A DNA stretch of 35,130 bases from Bdellovibrionales bacterium (GTDB taxonomy: Bacteria; Bdellovibrionota; Bdellovibrionia; Bdellovibrionales; UBA1609). The position numbers and the translations under genes were made by a program. Under the pieces are notes generated by a model that was given only the letters and a program-made list of their open reading frames with translations, was not told where the DNA came from and ran no database searches. Each line of letters starts with the position of its first letter. Positions within the stretch are counted from its first letter, which is position 1. Positions 5,605 through 26,643 of this stretch are shown here, in pieces. The DNA lies in NCBI GenBank assembly GCA_013216195.1, contig JABSOQ010000024.1:1-35130 (forward strand), in the 5' to 3' direction.

Positions 5605-6687
5605 ATGGGCTCACGATTTTATGGCAATATCAAAAATCTCACAGGCATGGCGGCTATAGCTTTGCTGAGCTCGAGCACAGCTCTCGCTTCACCATTCGAT
5701 TTTCACTGGCCAAGTGTTTTACAGCGTAGCTGTGACTCTCAAATGTTGCCTGCCAGCTCGAAGGGCTACCGTGTGGCCACAGCCCCTGTGGTTCCGATGA
5801 TTTCAGCCGCTGAAGAGTTCTTGATTCAGCAAGAACAGCTGATTGATGGGCAAAAGGTTGAATTTCTGTTTCATGGCCGCCTCGAGCTGGATGGCCGCCT
5901 TACACTTGATTTTGAACTAGTTGATCACGCAAAGCAAATTAGGAGCAGCATACGGGGGCTAGAAGCATTTGCTGAGATGATGGAGCACCTTGGCTCCGAT
6001 AGAATGGTCTACGTGCAAAGCGACTGGAGCAGCGCAAGCAACAACCATGCGAGCTTTATCAACAACGTTATCGGAGGAGCCTCACCACAACAAGCAGCCC
6101 TTTCAACTTGGACGGCAAGGCAGCTACAAAACTATGGTTTTGATAGTGTCGAAAAGATCTGGTTCGAGCCGAAATCTACAGAGAAAATCAGAGAAATACT
6201 AGATGGAGTTCGAGAGGCTTCGCTTGATGATTTTACTGTGAACGTGATTTTCACAAGGAGCAGTCAGAGGGAGACTCAGCTCAATGGACCACTTGCAGAG
6301 TTATGGAGCTCAGACGGCAGTAGAGTCTGGCTGGTTGATTTGGTGTTTGGCTATAGACTTGGATTGGGCTTCGCAGAAAACCATATTGAGATTCTCGACG
6401 CGAGCCAGGTTACAGGTCAGCACGGCTCAAATCAGTCTCTGCTCGATTTGCAAAAAATTATTGATCAAATCAATGCTTACCTCTCGAGCCCTGGGCGGCC
6501 AGCAAGCCTGTCGGTAGGAGTTAGCCGAGATCTTTACAAAGCTCTCAGCACATTGAGGCCTTTTGGCCCACAAACAAAACTTGGAGACTTTCAACTCTCT
6601 TTGCTTGGCAAAATCTTGGCCAAGTACAATATGCTAGCCGATTCGGTATCAAGCTCTGGACGAGACTACGAGGTGATCTTTCGATGA
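5605..6687 (+). CDS. Exported protein of unknown function, paralogue of the gene at 7787
   Basis: A 360-residue protein with an N-terminal signal-like segment (hydrophobic part near residues 15-29, ending TALASP). The middle (about 108-185) matches the third gene of this operon: VDH..K.RS.IRG.EA, HLG.DR, W..AS.NH.SF and AA..TWT....L..GF..V. A second shared block lies further on (PL..W.S.G...WL.D..FGY.LGL.F). The block with tryptophan, NH.SF and TWT resembles, from memory, a domain found at the C-termini of polymorphic toxins; I cannot name it and have not searched for it. There is no Shine-Dalgarno, and the sigma-54 promoter at 5577-5592 ends so close to the ATG that the mRNA should be nearly leaderless. 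Its stop overlaps the next start (ATGA). Confidence 0.85.
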   Translation: MGSRFYGNIKNLTGMAAIALLSSSTALASPFDFHWPSVLQRSCDSQMLPASSKGYRVATAPVVPMISAAEEFLIQQEQLIDGQKVEFLFHGRLELDGRLTLDFELVDHAKQIRSSIRGLEAFAEMMEHLGSDRMVYVQSDWSSASNNHASFINNVIGGASPQQAALSTWTARQLQNYGFDSVEKIWFEPKSTEKIREILDGVREASLDDFTVNVIFTRSSQRETQLNGPLAELWSSDGSRVWLVDLVFGYRLGLGFAENHIEILDASQVTGQHGSNQSLLDLQKIIDQINAYLSSPGRPASLSVGVSRDLYKALSTLRPFGPQTKLGDFQLSLLGKILAKYNMLADSVSSSGRDYEVIFR

Positions 6688-7790
6688 AGATTGCAGTCTC
6701 AATATTGCTGACATCCTTGATTATGCCAAGCCAATCTGGCTTGGCCGAAGGGCTCAATGGTTCCGAATGGACCTTTACAAATGATCGCATGTTGAATGCT
6801 GAAAACACCAACAACATGCAAGCCTATCAGATTGAGGTGATCGCTAAGTGGCTACAGAGAATTGCAGCCCAATGTGCAAGTTGCTCTGTCAATCTTGATA
6901 AAAGTGAATTCACTCTTGAAGGCGATTTGACGCTGAACGTGTTTCCCGACAACCGAGTGCTTGAATGGAACATAACCGCAGCCACTTCAACGCGACTTCG
7001 AAGCTACGAAGAGCTTTTACAGAGGCTAATCTGGGACACAGCTAAAGGGCTCGGCCTTTCACCTCACGAGCGAATCGGAGGTGGCCATATCACACTCGAT
7101 TCTGCAACACACTTCGCTGGCGACGAATTGCTCGAGCGCAACTTTTTGGCTGACACCCTCAACCACCCTGAGCTTTCGATAGGCGGGCTAGGCCTCGTCA
7201 ATGGTGGTGCAAAGCCCGCAGCCGTTCTTGAGCCACATATTCTTGAGGCGATAGCTGCTGAATTTAGCAAGTTCGATGAGGGCCTGATCGACATCCATAA
7301 ACTGAGAGACAACATCGACACTCACTATGCCCATTCTGAGGTCGCATTTAGTGGTAACAAAAATCATGCGATGAACTTGGTGCGCCGAGGTCGCACAGAG
7401 TTGAGAGCTATCAAACCGCAAACTAGCATGAGGCAATATCTAGCCATTCTTGATCTGATCGAAGGGCGGATCGCCTATCTCAAGAAGTTTCGGCAGCCCA
7501 TACCTCTTCAGGTGCCAGACTATCGGAGCCTGTACAGGTTTCACCGCGACGAAGATTTCAAAATGATTATTGAAAACAAGGTACCCGCACAGCTCATCGT
7601 AAATGTGTTCGCACGCTACGTGATTGAATCTGGTCAAGACTGGAATGATTTTAGAAATGACCTGGCTGACCCTAGATTGATTGGTCTTCGACCCCAGGGC
7701 TTTGTTGGCTCACTGTCAGCGAGTCGTAAGCAACTGCTGTGCCCTGCCATTTTGACCGAGCCGACAAGGCGAGGTGTAGTGCAGCAATGA
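6684..7790 (+). CDS. Exported protein of unknown function, middle gene of operon
   Basis: A 368-residue protein with a signal peptide (hydrophobic residues 4-20, cleavage probably after GLAE). It is unrelated in sequence to its two neighbours. A central motif IGGGHITLD, followed by ELLERNFLADTLNHPEL and GLGLVNGGAKPAA, faintly recalls amidoligase/glutamate-cysteine-ligase-like proteins, which often carry a GxGH motif. This is weak and I do not assign a reaction. A CxxC pair (CASC) lies near residue 71. Both ends overlap the neighbouring genes by four bases (ATGA), so all three proteins are probably made together. The origin of the family and any partner in the cell envelope are unknown. Confidence 0.85.
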   Translation: MKIAVSILLTSLIMPSQSGLAEGLNGSEWTFTNDRMLNAENTNNMQAYQIEVIAKWLQRIAAQCASCSVNLDKSEFTLEGDLTLNVFPDNRVLEWNITAATSTRLRSYEELLQRLIWDTAKGLGLSPHERIGGGHITLDSATHFAGDELLERNFLADTLNHPELSIGGLGLVNGGAKPAAVLEPHILEAIAAEFSKFDEGLIDIHKLRDNIDTHYAHSEVAFSGNKNHAMNLVRRGRTELRAIKPQTSMRQYLAILDLIEGRIAYLKKFRQPIPLQVPDYRSLYRFHRDEDFKMIIENKVPAQLIVNVFARYVIESGQDWNDFRNDLADPRLIGLRPQGFVGSLSASRKQLLCPAILTEPTRRGVVQQ

Positions 7791-8851
7791 TCTCTCGGCA
7801 CCGTAGATACTCTTACCTCATCATTATTGCTTTCGTAATTGGCCTGGCCACTGAGCCCGTGATGGCAGCTCCTTTTTTATTTTCTCCCGCTCGAATCATC
7901 CACTTCTGCAAAAACCTCTTGGGCTATGGAGACCCCAAAACCTATAAGGTTCAAAACAGCCGCGTTCGTACCAACACTTCGACTGCAGACTACTACGGCG
8001 AATGGCAAAGTACCGCTGAAGCCGGCAGCTCTGAGAACTTTCACTTCTATGCCTACCTGCAAGACGAGGGGCTTTTGAGAATATTTGCCAGGCTTGTAGA
8101 TCATCAAAACAAAACCCGAAGTAAGATCCGCGGAAAAGAAGCACTTGATAGAGCTCTAAGGCACCTTGGTACCGACCGCATTAATGAAATTGAGGGGCAA
8201 TGGCATGCCTCGAGTGACAATCATGTCAGCTTTCGAAACGCACTGTTTGCTGGTGAAACACCTACTGATGCCGCCTACAAAACATGGACGGGAAAATTGG
8301 CTGAAGAACTTGGTTTCACTCAAGTACGGAGCATTCACGTCGCTGAGAGAGTGCTCACCATTAAGGGCCAGCCCGTAGGCAAAGCCCCGCCACCTGAAAT
8401 GAATTCTGAAAACCCCACCGACCTCAAGCAATTTGTCTACTTTGTTAGATTTGTGAAACCAACTGAAGCTCCAAAACTTCTTCAGCTTGACTCTCCCTTG
8501 TTGGCCAAATGGTATTCGGGTGGGCGAAATTTGTGGCTAACAGATATATTCTTTGGGTACCAGCTCGGCCTAAAATTCGAGAGCGATCAAATCAAGCTAC
8601 TCAACGGCTCGAAATACGAAGATGATAACGGGGTTTCTAGTGAACTGTTTAGCGTGGCAGAGCTCGTTGACGGTTTGAATTACCTACTCGACCCAGCCAA
8701 CGAGGGAACAGAGCGTGCAGAAAAAATCAAGGCTCACTACCGGTATGCACTAGAATCTTTGCAAAGGCTAAACAGGCCCACGACACACTTTGATACCTCG
8801 GGCTCAATACTGCTCGATGTGCTTGAACGCTACAGGCATGTCATCTTGTAG
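7787..8851 (+). CDS. Exported protein of unknown function, paralogue of the gene at 5605
   Basis: A 354-residue protein with an N-terminal signal peptide or anchor (hydrophobic residues about 10-26, ending VMAAP). The start at 7787 is chosen because its ATG overlaps the preceding stop (ATGA), as at the other junction of the operon; an upstream in-frame start exists but would lie inside the middle gene. It shares the full layout of the 5605 gene: VDHQNKTRSKIRGKEA, HLGTDR, W.ASSDNHVSF, AAYKTWTGKL.EELGF, then WLTDIFFGYQLGL. The TWTGK form is closer than its paralogue to the toxin-like domain remembered from polymorphic toxin C-termini. The gene ends 25 bases before the convergent clpB, with no evident terminator between them. 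Confidence 0.85.
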   Translation: MISRHRRYSYLIIIAFVIGLATEPVMAAPFLFSPARIIHFCKNLLGYGDPKTYKVQNSRVRTNTSTADYYGEWQSTAEAGSSENFHFYAYLQDEGLLRIFARLVDHQNKTRSKIRGKEALDRALRHLGTDRINEIEGQWHASSDNHVSFRNALFAGETPTDAAYKTWTGKLAEELGFTQVRSIHVAERVLTIKGQPVGKAPPPEMNSENPTDLKQFVYFVRFVKPTEAPKLLQLDSPLLAKWYSGGRNLWLTDIFFGYQLGLKFESDQIKLLNGSKYEDDNGVSSELFSVAELVDGLNYLLDPANEGTERAEKIKAHYRYALESLQRLNRPTTHFDTSGSILLDVLERYRHVIL

Positions 8852-17696: not shown

Positions 17697-18749
17697 ATGA
17701 GAGAGCGTTCAATTTTAAGATCCCAAACATCTGAATTGAACCCAAAATTGGCAATCGAGCAGCTGACAGCCGAACTGCAACCACTTGATTCTAGCTTTAC
17801 TATCTTGTTTGTCTCGCCCACCTATGACTCTCTGGAACTTGAGAAACACATCAAAGAACTGTGCGGGCCAAAAGCGGTAGCTTGCACCACTGCAGGTGAA
17901 ATTTCTGCACTGGGCTATGGGCAAAATAGTATTTCGGGTATGTCTTTTAGCAAAGATCTGTTTGCCTCAACCATTGTTGATATCGATGAGTTTCAAAAAC
18001 TGACAGATCCACACCATCTCACTGAACTTCAAAACCGAGTGGTGGAAACGCTAAAGCTTCACCACAATCAAATCGCCGAGGGCCGCTCTTTTGCGATCTT
18101 GCTAGTTGATGGTCTCAGCATGAAAAAAGAAGATGTTACAGATTGCATCTCTAGTTTCATGCCAGTTGATGTTCCCGTCATTGGGGGATCAGCTGGCGAT
18201 GGACTCAAGTTTAAGCAAACACAAATTTTTGCAAATGATAGCTTCCGATGTCATCGTGCCACAATAGTCATGGTGACGACCTCTATCCCATTTCAGGTTT
18301 TCAAATCGCAGCATTTTCTAACCTCTGACAAAAAGATAGTGATTACCTCAGCCGATCCTGGAGACAGGATTGTGCACGAAATCGATGGGATGCCTGCGGC
18401 AGAGGCTTACGCGAAATGCCTTGGTGTAAACCTAAGTGATTTTGGTCCAAATTTGTATTCAAAGCATCCGGTATTGTTAAACATTGCCGGAGAAAGTTAC
18501 GTACGCAGTATACAAAAGGTCAACGATGACCAGAGCCTCACTTTCTACTGTGCTATTGAATCTTGCCTACTGTTCGAATGCATCTTACGCCGCCTTGAGG
18601 TCAAAAACCTAAGCGAGCGTGAAAGACAGGACCTAATCGACCTCTACACCATTAACCATGCCTGCGGATTCCATACTTATGGTGAGCAATTTGGCGGGAC
18701 ACATATCAATCAGACCTTAACGAGTATCGCCATCGGGAGTGAAAAATGA
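17697..18749 (+). CDS. FIST-domain sensor protein
   Basis: A 350-residue soluble protein made of the FIST N and FIST C domains, thought to sense small ligands and found with signalling proteins. Recognisable parts are the N-terminal CTTAGEISALGY, the glycine motif VIGGSAGDGLKF, and the C-terminal CGFHTYGEQFGG followed by HINQTLTSIAIG. There is no signal peptide, so it should act in the cytoplasm. The start is preceded by AAAGGA. Its stop overlaps the start of a histidine kinase (ATGA), a common pairing in which FIST acts as a separate sensor subunit for the kinase. The ligand cannot be told from sequence. Confidence 0.9.
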   Translation: MRERSILRSQTSELNPKLAIEQLTAELQPLDSSFTILFVSPTYDSLELEKHIKELCGPKAVACTTAGEISALGYGQNSISGMSFSKDLFASTIVDIDEFQKLTDPHHLTELQNRVVETLKLHHNQIAEGRSFAILLVDGLSMKKEDVTDCISSFMPVDVPVIGGSAGDGLKFKQTQIFANDSFRCHRATIVMVTTSIPFQVFKSQHFLTSDKKIVITSADPGDRIVHEIDGMPAAEAYAKCLGVNLSDFGPNLYSKHPVLLNIAGESYVRSIQKVNDDQSLTFYCAIESCLLFECILRRLEVKNLSERERQDLIDLYTINHACGFHTYGEQFGGTHINQTLTSIAIGSEK

Positions 18750-20020
18750 CAAATAAACTTGAACATCTTGAAAACGAAGTCGTTAGGCTGACAAAGGTAA
18801 ACAAGGCACTGATGAACAGAGTTGAGTCAAGACTCGCAGATAACAAAACTGCATTCGTAACCTTGGAAGGAAAAATTCTCCTAGAAAAGAGCGTGAGAGA
18901 CAGAACTCAACAGTTAGAAGAGACCACCAAAGACCTGTTGGATGAAAAAAATAAGCTCTCAAAGCTAGTAAAAGCACTGCCCGGAGACGTGCTTATGTTT
19001 GATGGTTCTATGAGCGTCAAAGATGTGTTTCGCGGAGAGTTTTTGGGTCTTCTTAGCCCCTCTAATGGTGAGAGCTCCGCAGCTCAATTCGAGACTGAAT
19101 TTTCTATCAAACTAAACTCTGATGTTAAAAAACTCTCTCCAGATCAAGAGTCTATTTCGTTTGAATTCCAGTGTACTGGATCAGAACAGTATAACTACTG
19201 CGGAGTCTCTTTGGCAAACGAAGACCACTACCTTCTTTACTCTCAAGACATGACCGAAATTGAGCTACAGCGAAAGCAGATCAGAGACCAGGAGATTCAG
19301 CTTATTGAAGCCTCAAAGCTTTGCTCCCTTGGTGAGATGGCTGGCGGTGTGGCTCATGAAATCAATACGCCTCTTTGTGCAATTCTTTTGGCTGCCAGCC
19401 AACTTGAAACAAGTGCTAAATCGAATCAGACTGCCAGTTCAGAAAAAGACCTGAGAAACATTGCCCTAATCATGCGCACAGTAGAAAGAGTTTCTAAAAT
19501 TGTTAAAAGCCTAAGACAGGTATCAAGAGACGGTGGTACCGATGAATTCGAAACATGCACACTTGAAGATGTGATAACAGATGCTTCGGGTCTTTGCACT
19601 GAACGATTCAAGTCACATGGAGTGAACCTAGACATTCAAGTGCAGAATCATGACATTTTAATCTCAGCTAAGAGAGTGCAGCTTTCACAAGTATTGTTGA
19701 ATTTGCTTAACAATTCTTTTCACGTCGCAAAAGATTGTGAAAAAGGATGGATCAAGATTCGGTTTCAAGAATCAGACTCGAACGTAAGGCTTCGAGTCAT
19801 TGACTGTGGCAGAGGAATCGAAGACGAAGTGCTTGATGAGATTTTCAAACCCTTCTTTACAACCAAAGAGATTGGAGAGGGCACAGGGCTCGGCATGAGC
19901 ATTTCCCAACAAATCGTCAACAAGCATGGCAGTGAGTTACGTTACGAGCTTTTTGAGGGCCACACTTCTTTTTACTTCGACATTTCAAAAGAGACTCACG
20001 ACTTGCCTCAAATAGCCTAG
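18746..20020 (+). CDS. Cytoplasmic histidine kinase partnered with FIST
   Basis: A 424-residue kinase without membrane segments. An N-terminal coiled coil (about 1-75) leads into a PAS-like region (about 75-175), then HisKA with the phospho-acceptor near His204 in GGVAHEINTPL. The HATPase domain shows NLLNNSFHVAKD, DCGRGIEDE and GEGTGLGMSISQQIV. It overlaps the FIST gene by four bases, so signal probably passes from FIST to kinase. No receiver protein is encoded beside it: the next gene, on the other strand, is a sigma-54 activator that lacks a receiver. The true response regulator is therefore probably elsewhere. Confidence 0.92.
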   Translation: MTNKLEHLENEVVRLTKVNKALMNRVESRLADNKTAFVTLEGKILLEKSVRDRTQQLEETTKDLLDEKNKLSKLVKALPGDVLMFDGSMSVKDVFRGEFLGLLSPSNGESSAAQFETEFSIKLNSDVKKLSPDQESISFEFQCTGSEQYNYCGVSLANEDHYLLYSQDMTEIELQRKQIRDQEIQLIEASKLCSLGEMAGGVAHEINTPLCAILLAASQLETSAKSNQTASSEKDLRNIALIMRTVERVSKIVKSLRQVSRDGGTDEFETCTLEDVITDASGLCTERFKSHGVNLDIQVQNHDILISAKRVQLSQVLLNLLNNSFHVAKDCEKGWIKIRFQESDSNVRLRVIDCGRGIEDEVLDEIFKPFFTTKEIGEGTGLGMSISQQIVNKHGSELRYELFEGHTSFYFDISKETHDLPQIA

Positions 20021-21433: not shown

Positions 21434-22432
21434 GTGAAGCCGAAAAATGACATATTGCTGGCTTACTGCTACTTGTGCGAGCTCAAGTCAAAGCAATTAG
21501 CATCTGATAATACATTGCGGGCATACGCAGTTGATCTCGGCCAGTTTCTTGGCAAATTTGGGCAGCTCAAGATGAAAAAAACAGCTGGTAAGGGTGAAAA
21601 TCCGTTTCAGATTTTTTTTGAAAATCATGAGTTTTCATTGAATTGGACTGAAATTGTTCTAGATCCAATCCCTTCACAGTCGTTTACAAATCTTTTAACT
21701 GAGGCCTATCAGAGCTGGGCCTCACTCGCTCCAGCCAGCAGAAACAGAAAAGCTGCGTGCCTGAAATCCTTTGCTAAATGGCTTTCTGAAAAAGACCTGA
21801 TTGACCAAGATGTGCGACACAGAATCTTTGCCCCCAAAGTTCCTCAGAAGATCCCTCACTTTCTATCGGTCGATGAACTGCAGTCGCTTTTATCAGCCCT
21901 CAAGCAGGGCAAGAGCCAGAACCTCAAGAATGTTGAAATTGAAGAGGCCCTGATTCTTCTGTTGTATGGCGGAGGTTTGCGTGTGAGCGAGGCCTGCCAG
22001 ATAAAGTGGGCTGACTTCAATTGGTCAAAAGGTTCTCTGCTGGTTCACAAGGCCAAAGGTGACCGAGAAAGGTTGGTCGTACTACCCGGCTCTGTGGTCG
22101 ACACCCTACAGGCCCTTCAAAGCTCTTCAGAGCCCTCTCTCTATATATATGGAGAATCTCCCCTGCACCCGAGGGTTGCCTACAATATCGTACGCTCCTG
22201 GGGCGCTAAAGCTGGTCTAAACCGGCCACTCAACCCTCATGCTCTTCGCCACAGCTATGCCACTCACCTTTTAAATGATGGTGCGGATCTCAGAGTTCTA
22301 GGAGAACTGCTAGGCCATAAAAGCCTGATGGCAACCCAGAAGTACACCCACCTGAGCCTGCAAAAGCTCACCCAGGTCATGGACACCCACCACCCACTCT
22401 CAAAAATCACAGGTAAAACTGGCAAAGCCTAG
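21434..22432 (+). CDS. xerC: Tyrosine recombinase of the XerC/XerD family
   Basis: A 332-residue site-specific recombinase. The catalytic set is complete: Arg in GLRVSEA, Lys in KAKGDRER, His-x-x-Arg in HALRHSYATHLL, His in LGHKSLMATQ and the nucleophilic Tyr in KYTHL. The N-terminal SAM-like domain that grips DNA is present but carries roughly 30 extra residues (about 45-75) compared with classic XerC. Xer proteins resolve chromosome dimers at dif. No att site, integron or phage gene is near, so a housekeeping role is more likely than an integrase role. The GTG start is chosen because the ATG six bases earlier hits a stop at once, while AAGGA stands seven bases before the GTG. XerC rather than XerD is a guess. 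Confidence 0.88.
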   Translation: MKPKNDILLAYCYLCELKSKQLASDNTLRAYAVDLGQFLGKFGQLKMKKTAGKGENPFQIFFENHEFSLNWTEIVLDPIPSQSFTNLLTEAYQSWASLAPASRNRKAACLKSFAKWLSEKDLIDQDVRHRIFAPKVPQKIPHFLSVDELQSLLSALKQGKSQNLKNVEIEEALILLLYGGGLRVSEACQIKWADFNWSKGSLLVHKAKGDRERLVVLPGSVVDTLQALQSSSEPSLYIYGESPLHPRVAYNIVRSWGAKAGLNRPLNPHALRHSYATHLLNDGADLRVLGELLGHKSLMATQKYTHLSLQKLTQVMDTHHPLSKITGKTGKA

Positions 22433-22448: not shown

Positions 22449-24356
22449 TTAGAATACCGATTCATCAGACCTTTGGTAGTCGATAAAATAGATACGACGA
22501 GCCAGTTGCCAGCTCTTGTCTTCATCTTGATGAAACATCAGAAGAGGGTAAACAAAGGTGGCTGACCCTTCTCTTCCCCAAAAACCAGGCTCCTTGGCTT
22601 GCTCAAAGTAATCATAAACCTCTTCTTCAAAGCTGAGCTCTTCTCGCTCTACCAGTGAACGAAAACGGTCGGGGTCAAAACTCATCACAACTTCGACAAA
22701 CTCAAGCCAACCCTCTACGACTCTGCTATCAGCGAACAACAATCTGGTTAAAAGGCTTGAGTGCTGACGTATTTTCCTTAACAACTTCTGGGAGGTGCCC
22801 TGTGGGTAAACCTGTTGCTGACTGAAACTCCGATCCGCGACGGCGACTTCGCTTGTGCGGTAGAGCAAACTGTGCTGAGCCGCAGTTGCTTTGAGGCTCA
22901 GCATGTTGACGAACTCTACCATGAACTTGTAGCGAAAAAACTCAGTTGAGAAACCGGGCTCAAAACGATCGATCTCGTCGATAAGCTTAAAGTAGCTCCA
23001 AGTCATGTCTTCCGTCATTTGAGCATATTCAAAAAGACCGGCATAAAGGCCGTCATAATCTCGAGCTTCACCCCGAAGTTGAGCATCATGAGAAAGCTCG
23101 CCAATAACCCTCGCCGTTGAGAGCCATTGATCACCAACATCGATCATGCCCTTTTGAAACGGCATCTGTAGCAACCAATAAATCGGAGATTGCTCAATCA
23201 CTCGAATGGCAAACTTCTGCATACCAAAATCAGATTTTTGGGCCAAATCGAGAGCTAGCTTTAGCAAGAACCGATTGAAGATGATTGTCTCTGTTGGTCT
23301 GAAGGTGAAAATGCGCTGGTTTGAAATAAGACCTAGAAAGTAACTGAGCTTGAAGCCCGTATCAAAACTCGGGTCTCTGGCAAATGCCTCAAAAATTTGT
23401 AATATCTTGATTGGTAATGCGTTTGGCTCATAATTGGGCAAACCGGCTTCTGCTAGCTGCTCCCATTGATCAATAGGAATCGGGCTATCAAACAAGTCGA
23501 GTACAGCCAGTTTCTGCTGAGCTCCCATCTTCTTCCAAGCCCTGAAGTTTTTCTTTCGCCACGCACTCTCTTCATGAACTTTGGTGTTCAGCACCAAAGA
23601 GACCTCGCCAACAAAAGCCTCAAGTGGCCCAGAATCGGTTTCAACTCGCTCGGCGAAGCCTCTGTTGTCAGCCATCATTCCTTTTTGTACGCCTGTTGGG
23701 CCATGAATACCATGGGGCTGATTGAATGCGGGGTAAGCTGAAATCAAGCGCCCACTTCTTTTGTCGACAGCAATTTTCACGTTGATTTCTGTCTCGTCTG
23801 TGCGGGTTACCTGGGCTTCAAACAGAAGGGCCCACCCCTTATCTTCCATAGCCCCTTGTTGAAATACAGCCTTGATGATCTCTTCGAGCTCGTCCTGATC
23901 CATGTCTCTTGGGAACAGTGTCTTCCAAAGATAACCACCATTGTGATTGATATCAGTCATCAACAAAGACTTTTTCTGAGCGGTGTTAAATGCCGAGTTT
24001 GGTAGTCGCACATGCCCCACACCATTGATAGCGTTTTGCATCACAAAGTACCAAGAACCCAGTGTCTTATCTGCACTGTCGACCTCGATCTTCTTAGTGC
24101 CGAGCTCAAAAATATCGTCTCTTTTTGCCATAAAAGCTTCTAGCCCTGCATAAGTGTGCATTCCGCCCTTCAGCCAAGCCCTCTTGGTAGTTGGGTTCTG
24201 CCCAAAATCACCTTGTAAGATGTGTTTTAGGGCTTTTTCAGTGATGACAATTTCTGTTGGTCGCCTGTGCATCTCATCGACACAAGACACTGTAGGTTTC
24301 GGGTTAGCCTGGGCCGAAAGCGCTACAAACAGCACTGTAAGAAGCAACCATTTCAT
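22449..24356 (-). CDS. Exported protein with N-terminal EndoU-like nuclease domain
   Basis: A 635-residue protein with a clear signal peptide (MKWLLLTVLFVALSAQA). Residues 36-210 resemble the bacterial EndoU RNase domain of polymorphic toxins: KHILQGDF with His45, KGGMHTYAGLEAF with His67, NGVGHVRLP, KTLFPRD with Lys145, a DELEEIIKAVF helix and SGRLISAYPAFNQ. Two histidines and a lysine form the EndoU active site. The remaining ~420 residues match no family I know, look helical and may serve as a delivery or binding part. Unlike usual toxins the nuclease is at the N-terminus, and no small immunity gene lies beside it. The sigma-54 promoter at 24369-24384 gives a nearly leaderless start. Homology is judged from motifs by eye. 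Confidence 0.8.
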   Translation of the reverse strand: MKWLLLTVLFVALSAQANPKPTVSCVDEMHRRPTEIVITEKALKHILQGDFGQNPTTKRAWLKGGMHTYAGLEAFMAKRDDIFELGTKKIEVDSADKTLGSWYFVMQNAINGVGHVRLPNSAFNTAQKKSLLMTDINHNGGYLWKTLFPRDMDQDELEEIIKAVFQQGAMEDKGWALLFEAQVTRTDETEINVKIAVDKRSGRLISAYPAFNQPHGIHGPTGVQKGMMADNRGFAERVETDSGPLEAFVGEVSLVLNTKVHEESAWRKKNFRAWKKMGAQQKLAVLDLFDSPIPIDQWEQLAEAGLPNYEPNALPIKILQIFEAFARDPSFDTGFKLSYFLGLISNQRIFTFRPTETIIFNRFLLKLALDLAQKSDFGMQKFAIRVIEQSPIYWLLQMPFQKGMIDVGDQWLSTARVIGELSHDAQLRGEARDYDGLYAGLFEYAQMTEDMTWSYFKLIDEIDRFEPGFSTEFFRYKFMVEFVNMLSLKATAAQHSLLYRTSEVAVADRSFSQQQVYPQGTSQKLLRKIRQHSSLLTRLLFADSRVVEGWLEFVEVVMSFDPDRFRSLVEREELSFEEEVYDYFEQAKEPGFWGREGSATFVYPLLMFHQDEDKSWQLARRIYFIDYQRSDESVF

Positions 24357-24384: not shown

Positions 24385-24484
24385 GCTGAGAGCCTTGTAG
24401 TCACCCACTCACCTGTAAACTCTGAACTCCACTGTGGCTTCATTTGCAGTAGCCAGAGCTTAGATTTTTTGTTTAGATGTGGCT

Positions 24485-25024
24485 ATGGGTAAGCATAAAG
24501 CCATCATCTTTGACCGCGACGGAACCCTTATTGTCGACAAGATCTACCTAAATGATCCTGACCTCATTGAGTACCCAGATGGCGTATTTGAGGCCCTGCA
24601 GTTATTACGAGATGCCGGCTATGTGTTTGCTGTTGCAACCAACCAGTCAGGCATTCCAAGAGGAATCGTTCAGCCCGCCAACTTATTTGAAACTCATCGA
24701 AGAATTCGCAACGAATTTGCCAGGCATGGAGTGGACTTTCTCGATTTTTACTACGCTCCTTATATGACTGACACCGATCACTGGATGAGAAAGCCCAACC
24801 CAGGCATGCTTGAGGTGGCCGCGAAGAACCACGACCTAGCGCTTGAACAAAGTTGGATGGTTGGAGACAAGATGTCTGATGTTGAGGCCGGCCACAGGGC
24901 AGGCTGTAAATCTGCTTTCTTAAATACGACCAACAACCCCTCTCATCAAGATGGCTGGAGAGACCCAGAAGTCGTCTGCGACACCCTTCTTGAAGCTGCG
25001 CACTTGATGCTGTCTCAATCTTAG
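24485..25024 (+). CDS. HAD phosphatase of the HisB-N/GmhB type
   Basis: A 179-residue HAD-superfamily phosphatase. The nucleophile motif is FDRDGTL (Asp10, Asp12), followed by TNQSGIPRG, RKPNPGM and GDKMSDVEAG. This is the group of histidinol-phosphate and D-glycero-D-manno-heptose-1,7-bisphosphate phosphatases. The zinc loop of GmhB, which carries several cysteines just before RKP, is replaced by a cysteine-free stretch (YYAPYMTDTDHW), so the protein belongs to a zinc-less branch. Substrate therefore remains open: heptose or another sugar phosphate, or histidinol phosphate. The start is uncertain, since the ATG at 24485 has no Shine-Dalgarno; a GTG two codons earlier is possible. It stands alone between divergent and downstream genes. 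Confidence 0.88.
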   Translation: MGKHKAIIFDRDGTLIVDKIYLNDPDLIEYPDGVFEALQLLRDAGYVFAVATNQSGIPRGIVQPANLFETHRRIRNEFARHGVDFLDFYYAPYMTDTDHWMRKPNPGMLEVAAKNHDLALEQSWMVGDKMSDVEAGHRAGCKSAFLNTTNNPSHQDGWRDPEVVCDTLLEAAHLMLSQS

Positions 25025-25215: not shown

Positions 25216-26643
25216 ATGAGATCTTTAGCAGCGATGCTAATAGGTTTGAGCTTCGTAGTCTTATCACCTTCTTTTGCATTCGCAAAAGGCCACGGCGTAT
25301 TCCGAGTGGTTAAAGGTGATGTGAAAGTTCAGAGTGCCAAGACTGGCAAAACCAAAAAGGCGAAGATCGGCCAAAAGGTCTTTCCAAAAGATACGGTGAT
25401 CTCTGGTGAAAAGTCTCGAGCCAAGATCATAATGGTCGACAAAAACGTTCTCAATATCTCACCAAATTCTAAAATCGAAATCGAAGCTTACGAGTACGAG
25501 CCGTCGAAGAAAAAGAAAAATGTTTTACTGAATGTGATCTACGGTAAGGTCAGATCTAAGGTGAAGCAAAAGTACGATGGCAAAGGGAACAAGTTTCAGG
25601 TGAAAACGAAGTCTGCTGTTGCCGGTGTACGTGGTACAGATTTCGTAACAGGTTATGACCCTACCAGCCGCCAATCTACAGTTGTGACATTTGAAGGTAA
25701 AGTGCAATTCGGTACACCTGGAGTGGGTGGAACGATCCAAAATGCTGTTGCCGTGAATGCTGGTCAAATTGCGAATCAAGCTGGTAACGCTTCAGTTGGC
25801 CAGCCAAGGTCAGTGCCTAGACAGCAATTAGCTGCCATGGATAATGAAACCAATGCCGACACGTCTTCAGCTGGCGGCTCAGATGAGCGACAGCCGTCTA
25901 ACTCACCTAATGAGTCGAATGACAAGGGTGAGAACTCTGATGACAAAGGCAAAGATGGAGACGCTAAAGGTAGCGACACCAAGTCTGAGGGCGGTGACGC
26001 TAAAACCGAGGGCGGTGACAACAAGGCTGAGGCAGGCGATGCCAAAGCAGATGGTGACAATAAAAGTTCAACTGGCGAAGCAAAAGCCGAAGGAAATGAG
26101 AAGGGACCAGCAAAGGGGAATGCCCAGGCCGGCAACAATGGTAACGGGGGTCGTTCTGGCGCGAATCGAGCGCCAGCAGCTTCCACCGGTGGGGAATCAG
26201 GGGGCCCCGCCGGTGGAGATTCTTCTGCAAATGGTGGGAGCACCACAGCAGAAAATACTGACGGTGGCCAAAAATCAGGGCCAGCCAGGGGCGGCCCGCG
26301 CCGTGGACCAGCGAGTGTTGGACCACGACCACGAGTCACTGTCGGAACACCTGCCACAGGGGCAGTAACAGCGGGACCAGCCACTAACGTCGGTGGCCCC
26401 TCACCTGATGTCGGTGGGACCGGGCCAGACGTAAGCCGAACTCCTGCCGCCGGTCTAGCTCCGCCGCCACCACCGCCACCTGTACCCGAGACACCTTTTC
26501 TACCTGGCGACTCTTTTCAACCTCCACCCGTTGCTGATGTTATTGGCAATGTTCCCGACGTTGGTGAGATTTGCGGTCAGATATGTAACGAAACCATCAT
26601 TGATGGCACAGCTCGCTTGATCATCAATATTCAAGGTAATTAG
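25216..26643 (+). CDS. Exported FecR-domain protein with low-complexity tail
   Basis: A 475-residue protein with a signal peptide (ending SFAFAKG). Residues 25-190 are a FecR domain: GVFRVVKGDVKVQ, a FPKDTVISGEKSRAKI strand, LNISPNSKIEIE, and VKTKSAVAGVRGTDFV before VVTFEGKVQF. There is no cytoplasmic anti-sigma part, so this is the periplasmic scaffold type rather than the iron regulator. Then comes a charged repeat region (GDAKTEGGDNKAEAGDAK-like units, about 235-300), a Gly/Pro/Ala-rich region and a final segment with CGQIC. GGAGGT stands eight bases before the ATG. A sigma-28-like promoter precedes it and a terminator follows. FecR proteins of this kind often sit with TPR/barrel proteins such as the next gene, suggesting a shared envelope role. 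Confidence 0.88.
   Translation: MRSLAAMLIGLSFVVLSPSFAFAKGHGVFRVVKGDVKVQSAKTGKTKKAKIGQKVFPKDTVISGEKSRAKIIMVDKNVLNISPNSKIEIEAYEYEPSKKKKNVLLNVIYGKVRSKVKQKYDGKGNKFQVKTKSAVAGVRGTDFVTGYDPTSRQSTVVTFEGKVQFGTPGVGGTIQNAVAVNAGQIANQAGNASVGQPRSVPRQQLAAMDNETNADTSSAGGSDERQPSNSPNESNDKGENSDDKGKDGDAKGSDTKSEGGDAKTEGGDNKAEAGDAKADGDNKSSTGEAKAEGNEKGPAKGNAQAGNNGNGGRSGANRAPAASTGGESGGPAGGDSSANGGSTTAENTDGGQKSGPARGGPRRGPASVGPRPRVTVGTPATGAVTAGPATNVGGPSPDVGGTGPDVSRTPAAGLAPPPPPPPVPETPFLPGDSFQPPPVADVIGNVPDVGEICGQICNETIIDGTARLIINIQGN

Follow-up and report, generated by a model that had tools for sequence, protein, structure and literature searches.

A predicted exported EndoU-like RNase of a Bdellovibrionales bacterium and a related family in defence islands and prophages

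The EndoU-like gene and its surroundings

The window analysed is a 35,130-nucleotide stretch of a Bdellovibrionales genome (assembly GCA_013216195.1, contig JABSOQ010000024.1, positions 1 to 35,130). An open reading frame at 22449..24356 on the minus strand (stop codon included) encodes a predicted exported EndoU-like protein of 635 aa, exactly as an earlier note on this DNA described, and each of its halves has a codon-position GC similar to that of neighbouring genes. It is convergent with the gene for a XerC-like tyrosine recombinase (21434..22432, plus strand) and divergent from that for a GmhB-like HAD phosphatase (24479..25024, plus strand). These two genes form the left and right edges of an insertion and lie outside the system.

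Four relatives (G034, G008, G033 and G026) have xerC and the HAD gene overlapping or separated by no more than about 50 bp; in the window the two are split by the EndoU-like gene, which runs the other way. As the junction is intact in these relatives, the gene is most simply explained as a lineage-specific, accessory gain and would not belong to the core machinery. A same-genus genome (G002) has a 506-aa gene (L091) downstream of xerC, which was tested as a hidden homologue of the EndoU-like gene and found to be unrelated. No small same-strand gene adjoins the EndoU-like gene, and its neighbours, xerC and the HAD gene, are both kept in relatives that do not have it; as the earlier note said, there is no immunity gene beside it.

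Other features of the window were recorded. A FecR-domain protein (25216-26643), whose C-terminal part is long, of low complexity and rich in G, P and N, adjoins a TPR protein, and this pair is kept beside xerC-HAD in several relatives. Three successive plus-strand ORFs of 360-370 aa at 5605-8851 have no Pfam match. At 17697-20020, the gene for a FIST sensor domain protein overlaps a histidine kinase gene, probably forming a signalling pair.

The EndoU-like protein begins with MKWLLLTVLFVALSAQA, a predicted Sec-type signal peptide of textbook appearance spanning residues 1-17 (24306..24356, minus strand) with predicted cleavage after AQA17, followed by NPK. The simple rule that recognized it lets through 0.2% of random 28-mers matched in composition, and 0.35% of internal stretches from window proteins. 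By this rule the Sec signal of the earlier note is supported, and the 635-aa protein is very probably exported by the Sec route. No Shine-Dalgarno sequence was seen upstream of the gene start, and neither candidate start (Met1 or Met29) has a good ribosome site.

Residues 216-635 (22452..23711, minus strand) form an orphan C-terminal region, predicted at very low confidence to be mostly helical. Searches of Pfam, NCBIfam, PDB sequences, phages and the 368 other genomes of the phylum gave no match, which agrees with the description of this 420-residue partner in the earlier note as unknown, and Pfam and NCBIfam revealed no delivery domain in it. A single-sequence fold of all 635 residues was uninformative (pLDDT 35).

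Assignment of the N-terminal domain to EndoU

Residues 34-215 (23712..24257, minus strand) make up the EndoU-like domain. The Pfam EndoU family PF14436 matched the protein over residues 141-209 with 13 bits (E = 0.14), under its cut-off of 25.3, so the protein is filed as an EndoU-superfamily homologue and not as a PF14436 member. Whole-protein pattern scans of genomes and viral contigs with the window protein alone gave no relatives. By tblastn one remote relative was found on a Pseudoalteromonas plasmid (E = 2e-9), which itself matches PF14436 below the cut-off (E = 7.6e-4). An alignment of these two proteins retrieved five viral-contig and 22 genome loci. The undescribed family referred to here as EndoU-N is represented by 21 proteins from Pseudomonadota and Bacteroidota, mostly of 620-650 aa and with an N-terminal EndoU-like domain. 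In alignment A3, which has 22 members, 15 match PF14436, all under its cut-off.

A profile of the 21 family members, built without the window protein, scores 97 bits on residues 34-215 of that protein (E = 4e-26 for a search space of a million sequences). Compared with a profile of canonical EndoU domains (alignment A6: L015, Rhizobium, an E. coli plasmid and three phages), the family profile gave a probability of 81% over the span from K..FP to SAFP; the window protein alone gave a weak hhalign match to canonical EndoU (10% probability). EndoU-like proteins from other members of the phylum are matched by both profiles, with 39 bits (family) and 24 bits (canonical) for L062, 23 and 28 bits for L078, and 20 bits in each case for L079; the double matches of L062 and L078 tie the EndoU-N family to canonical EndoU. 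A tree of the domain had long branches and was unresolved (the L078 row was in the wrong frame), and it was set aside. The EndoU relation put forward in the earlier note is upheld by profile comparison and by the fold, Pfam alone being insufficient.

The domain has the motifs HxxxGD, GGxH and K[ST]xFP, with a His-His-Lys triad in the EndoU order. The predicted catalytic residues are His45, in the HILQGD helix (codon 24222..24224), His67, in GGMHT (24156..24158), and Lys145, in GYLWKTLFP (23922..23924), all encoded on the minus strand and invariant in an alignment with the 21 family members and two exported relatives. Ser206 in LISAYP (23739..23741, minus strand) would be the S/T residue of the final core strand; it is invariant in alignment A3, and canonical EndoU has S/T at this position. 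All the motifs listed in the earlier note occur in the protein, KT.FP and SGRLISAYP among them, and distant relatives keep both histidines and the lysine. A His-His-Lys triad makes up the active site of EndoU enzymes: in coronavirus Nsp15 it is H235, H250 and K290 (PMC7840905), and in the EndoU toxin CdiA-CT STECO31 the residues are H187, H204 and K261-T262 (PMC9086364). Assigned by order and motif, His45, His67 and Lys145 would be the counterparts of both triads.

Bacterial EndoU toxins (PF14436; CdiA-CT STECO31 and RHS/MafB-linked EndoU) resemble the window domain in the His-His-Lys(Thr) site, the S/T-x-[FY]-P of the last strand and the EndoU fold. However, they are C-terminal warheads with adjacent immunity genes, whereas the window domain is N-terminal, and its stretch from His67 to Lys145 is 78 residues compared with 57 in STECO31 (from residue numbers in PMC9086364).

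Residues 19-239 were modelled from a 27-row alignment (mean pLDDT 76.6, pTM 0.76). In the model, His45 is part of a helix and Lys145 and Ser206 are in strands, with His67 falling between a strand and a helix. Among 350,542 PDB chains, the best three matches to the model were coronavirus Nsp15 (probability 0.82-0.85), the sole matches above 0.8. Nsp15 shares the His-His-Lys triad (PMC7840905) but has different accessory domains and only 12-15% identity over aligned columns. In a viral structure library, the leading matches were mainly replicase polyproteins of coronavirus and related type (probability up to 1.00), the top one (1.00) being the Nsp15 EndoU replicase region. Since E-values (about 0.06-0.09) and TM-score (0.34) of the Nsp15 matches are modest, with all Foldseek E-values above 0.001, the fold is supporting rather than decisive evidence; the model points with moderate strength to the EndoU fold that the earlier note expected, the only confident PDB folds being Nsp15 EndoU. 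Overall, the identity of the domain as EndoU-type is well supported, and it is highly likely to be active as an RNase.

Relatives in the phylum and the EndoU-N family

A joint profile of the window protein, two exported relatives and three EndoU-N members found matches in nine of the 369 genomes of the phylum. The architecture of the window protein itself occurs in one of the 369, which indicates that it is not a general predation enzyme. Hydropathy revealed hydrophobic signal-like N-termini in L061 (259 aa), L062 (532 aa), L077 (482 aa), L079 (521 aa), L080 (292 aa) and L082 (414 aa; a weak match, E = 4e-4). L078 is a frame of 1537 codons with a C-terminal EndoU-like domain, and L081 is partial. 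Domain architectures vary among these proteins. Inspection showed both histidines and the lysine in all complete members from the phylum. About 10 bp downstream of the exported EndoU-like gene of L079 lies a same-strand gene for a 188-aa protein (L079:1910-2476), possibly an immunity gene; in L061 and L062 the next gene is on the opposite strand. In genome G010, from the same family as the window genome, a large protein (L015:40-1752) has a canonical EndoU domain at its C-terminus (43 bits). What we take to be the Bdellovibrio 16S primer site is present in 40 of the 141 genomes of the order, mostly from family f8, which makes Bdellovibrionales its probable identity; the window genome belongs to f1.

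The EndoU-N family, exemplified by WP_010554775.1 (Pseudoalteromonas) and WP_001546990.1 (E. coli), both annotated as 'hypothetical protein', has the N-terminal domain in common with the window protein and a similar total length. Common landmarks are H45, H67, NGV..LP, GYLWKTLFP and S-A-[FY]-P. The family differs in being predicted cytoplasmic, with no signal peptide evident among the listed relatives, in its C-terminal domain and in its location in defence islands and prophages. At least 21 relatives have the nuclease first, followed by a helical domain different from the window tail. The domain order that the earlier note called unusual is therefore not unique, being found in these predicted cytoplasmic proteins; the oddity is the signal peptide together with the replaced C-terminal part. 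The tail scored -3 bits against the family C-terminal domain in hmmsearch, and in hhalign it did no better than shuffled sequence. Scattered similarity between the two in a full-length MAFFT alignment was unsupported by these profile tests.

The family profile had no match to PDB sequences, and comparison of the family with PADLOC and PHROGs gave only chance-level matches. The 103 proteins encoded by neighbouring genes matched 137 PADLOC models at E ≤ 1e-5 (best 1e-236), compared with seven models (best 3.5e-12) for 82 control proteins from unrelated loci; the controls come from other genomes and are a rough baseline, and one protein can match many models. Named neighbours include Zorya II (L042), LmuB (L057), type I R (L053), type IIG (L056) and Shedu (L059). 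The contexts are defence islands (Zorya, Lamassu/ABC-3C, Shedu and restriction) and prophages.

Of 5,426 complete E. coli genomes, five have a relative, with DNA identity of 66-69%. The two loci examined (L096:6986-8938 and L097:7082-8938) both annotate the gene as 'hypothetical protein' and place it in a tRNA-Gly element that also carries an integrase and, beside the gene, an ABC-three component system. On two viral contigs (L066:9926-11893 and L067:9956-11890), the family gene is a moron, inserted in reverse orientation in a tail gene cluster that, on our reading of the sequence, is presumably P2-like. Legionella copies are shortened or split (427 aa; or 321 aa with a downstream 302-aa frame; L043 and L045), and may be decaying. 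Given the setting in defence islands and prophages, EndoU-N proteins are probably anti-phage RNases. No EndoU family was tied to anti-phage defence, defence islands or abortive infection in the open-access papers searched.

Possible roles of the exported protein

The reading that we favour, with some reserve, is that the window protein is an exported EndoU-superfamily endoribonuclease, in which a Sec-borne His45/His67/Lys145 domain is joined to a 420-residue predicted helical domain and which would act on RNA outside its own cytoplasm. The precursor would leave through Sec, and the mature protein would fold outside the cytoplasm and cleave RNA from prey, from competitors or from lysed cells, with the tail as a targeting, binding or regulatory part. 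Export as a precursor that folds outside the cytoplasm would make a neighbouring immunity gene unnecessary. Action on the RNA of another cell, prey included, appears reasonably likely. A prey-directed role is plausible by analogy with B. bacteriovorus, whose signal-bearing DNases Bd0934 and Bd3507, nucleases of other families from the same order, are released into the prey cell (PMC7925074); the further exported EndoU-like proteins in the phylum also speak for it. Given the DNases, prey RNA is a reasonable target, but competitor RNA or free RNA would fit equally.

A scavenging RNase, with free or prey RNA as food and no role in attack, seems rather unlikely. EndoU endonucleases usually cut only at restricted sequences, which suits them badly to bulk digestion, and scavenging would leave the 420-residue partner unexplained and fits poorly with sporadic presence, even though export without an immunity gene favours it, as does the finding that predation by B. 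bacteriovorus does not depend on two of its secreted DNases (PMC7925074). The protein might also be a polymorphic-type toxin used in competition, its delivery and immunity genes being elsewhere in the genome and its tail serving delivery. EndoU domains are common warheads of such toxins (PMC3482391), and both the possible immunity gene of L079, about 10 bp behind an exported EndoU-like gene, and the canonical C-terminal EndoU protein of G010 are in keeping with this. However, the nuclease is N-terminal, directly after the signal, and not C-terminal behind a delivery module, there is no small gene adjacent and Pfam and NCBIfam show no delivery domain in the tail, and a toxin of this kind is considered unlikely.

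If translation began at Met29 and the signal peptide were spurious, the protein could work against phages in the cytoplasm, as its nearest relatives probably do; these have no signal and a similar distance from start to first histidine, and the poor ribosome sites at both starts would also allow this. The low chance rate of signal-like N-termini (0.2-0.35%), the signals on other EndoU-like proteins of the phylum and the absence of the family C-terminal domain from the window protein make this quite improbable. Least credible is a degenerate or catalytically dead copy, as might be suspected of a single orphan with no close homologue, since the catalytic residues are all intact, the frame is open over 635 codons and codon-position composition is normal in both halves.

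On the favoured reading of an exported RNase, a broader scheme may be suggested, tentatively. EndoU-N would be a single-gene anti-phage family, with an EndoU-like effector and a C-terminal helical sensor, carried by P2-like prophages, tRNA-Gly elements and defence islands. In the Bdellovibrio order the same nuclease would have been turned outward, against other cells, once provided with a new partner domain and a signal peptide.

Known EndoU RNases come from toxins, eukaryotes and nidoviruses. Among the open-access papers searched, none reported an EndoU that serves as effector in phage defence or that Bdellovibrio-like bacteria secrete. If the scheme is true, one domain family would join a defence nuclease with an exported weapon or digestive enzyme. 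The E. coli member, present in five of the 5,426 complete genomes, is a testable candidate for phage defence, and the window protein is a candidate exported RNase beside the known secreted DNases.
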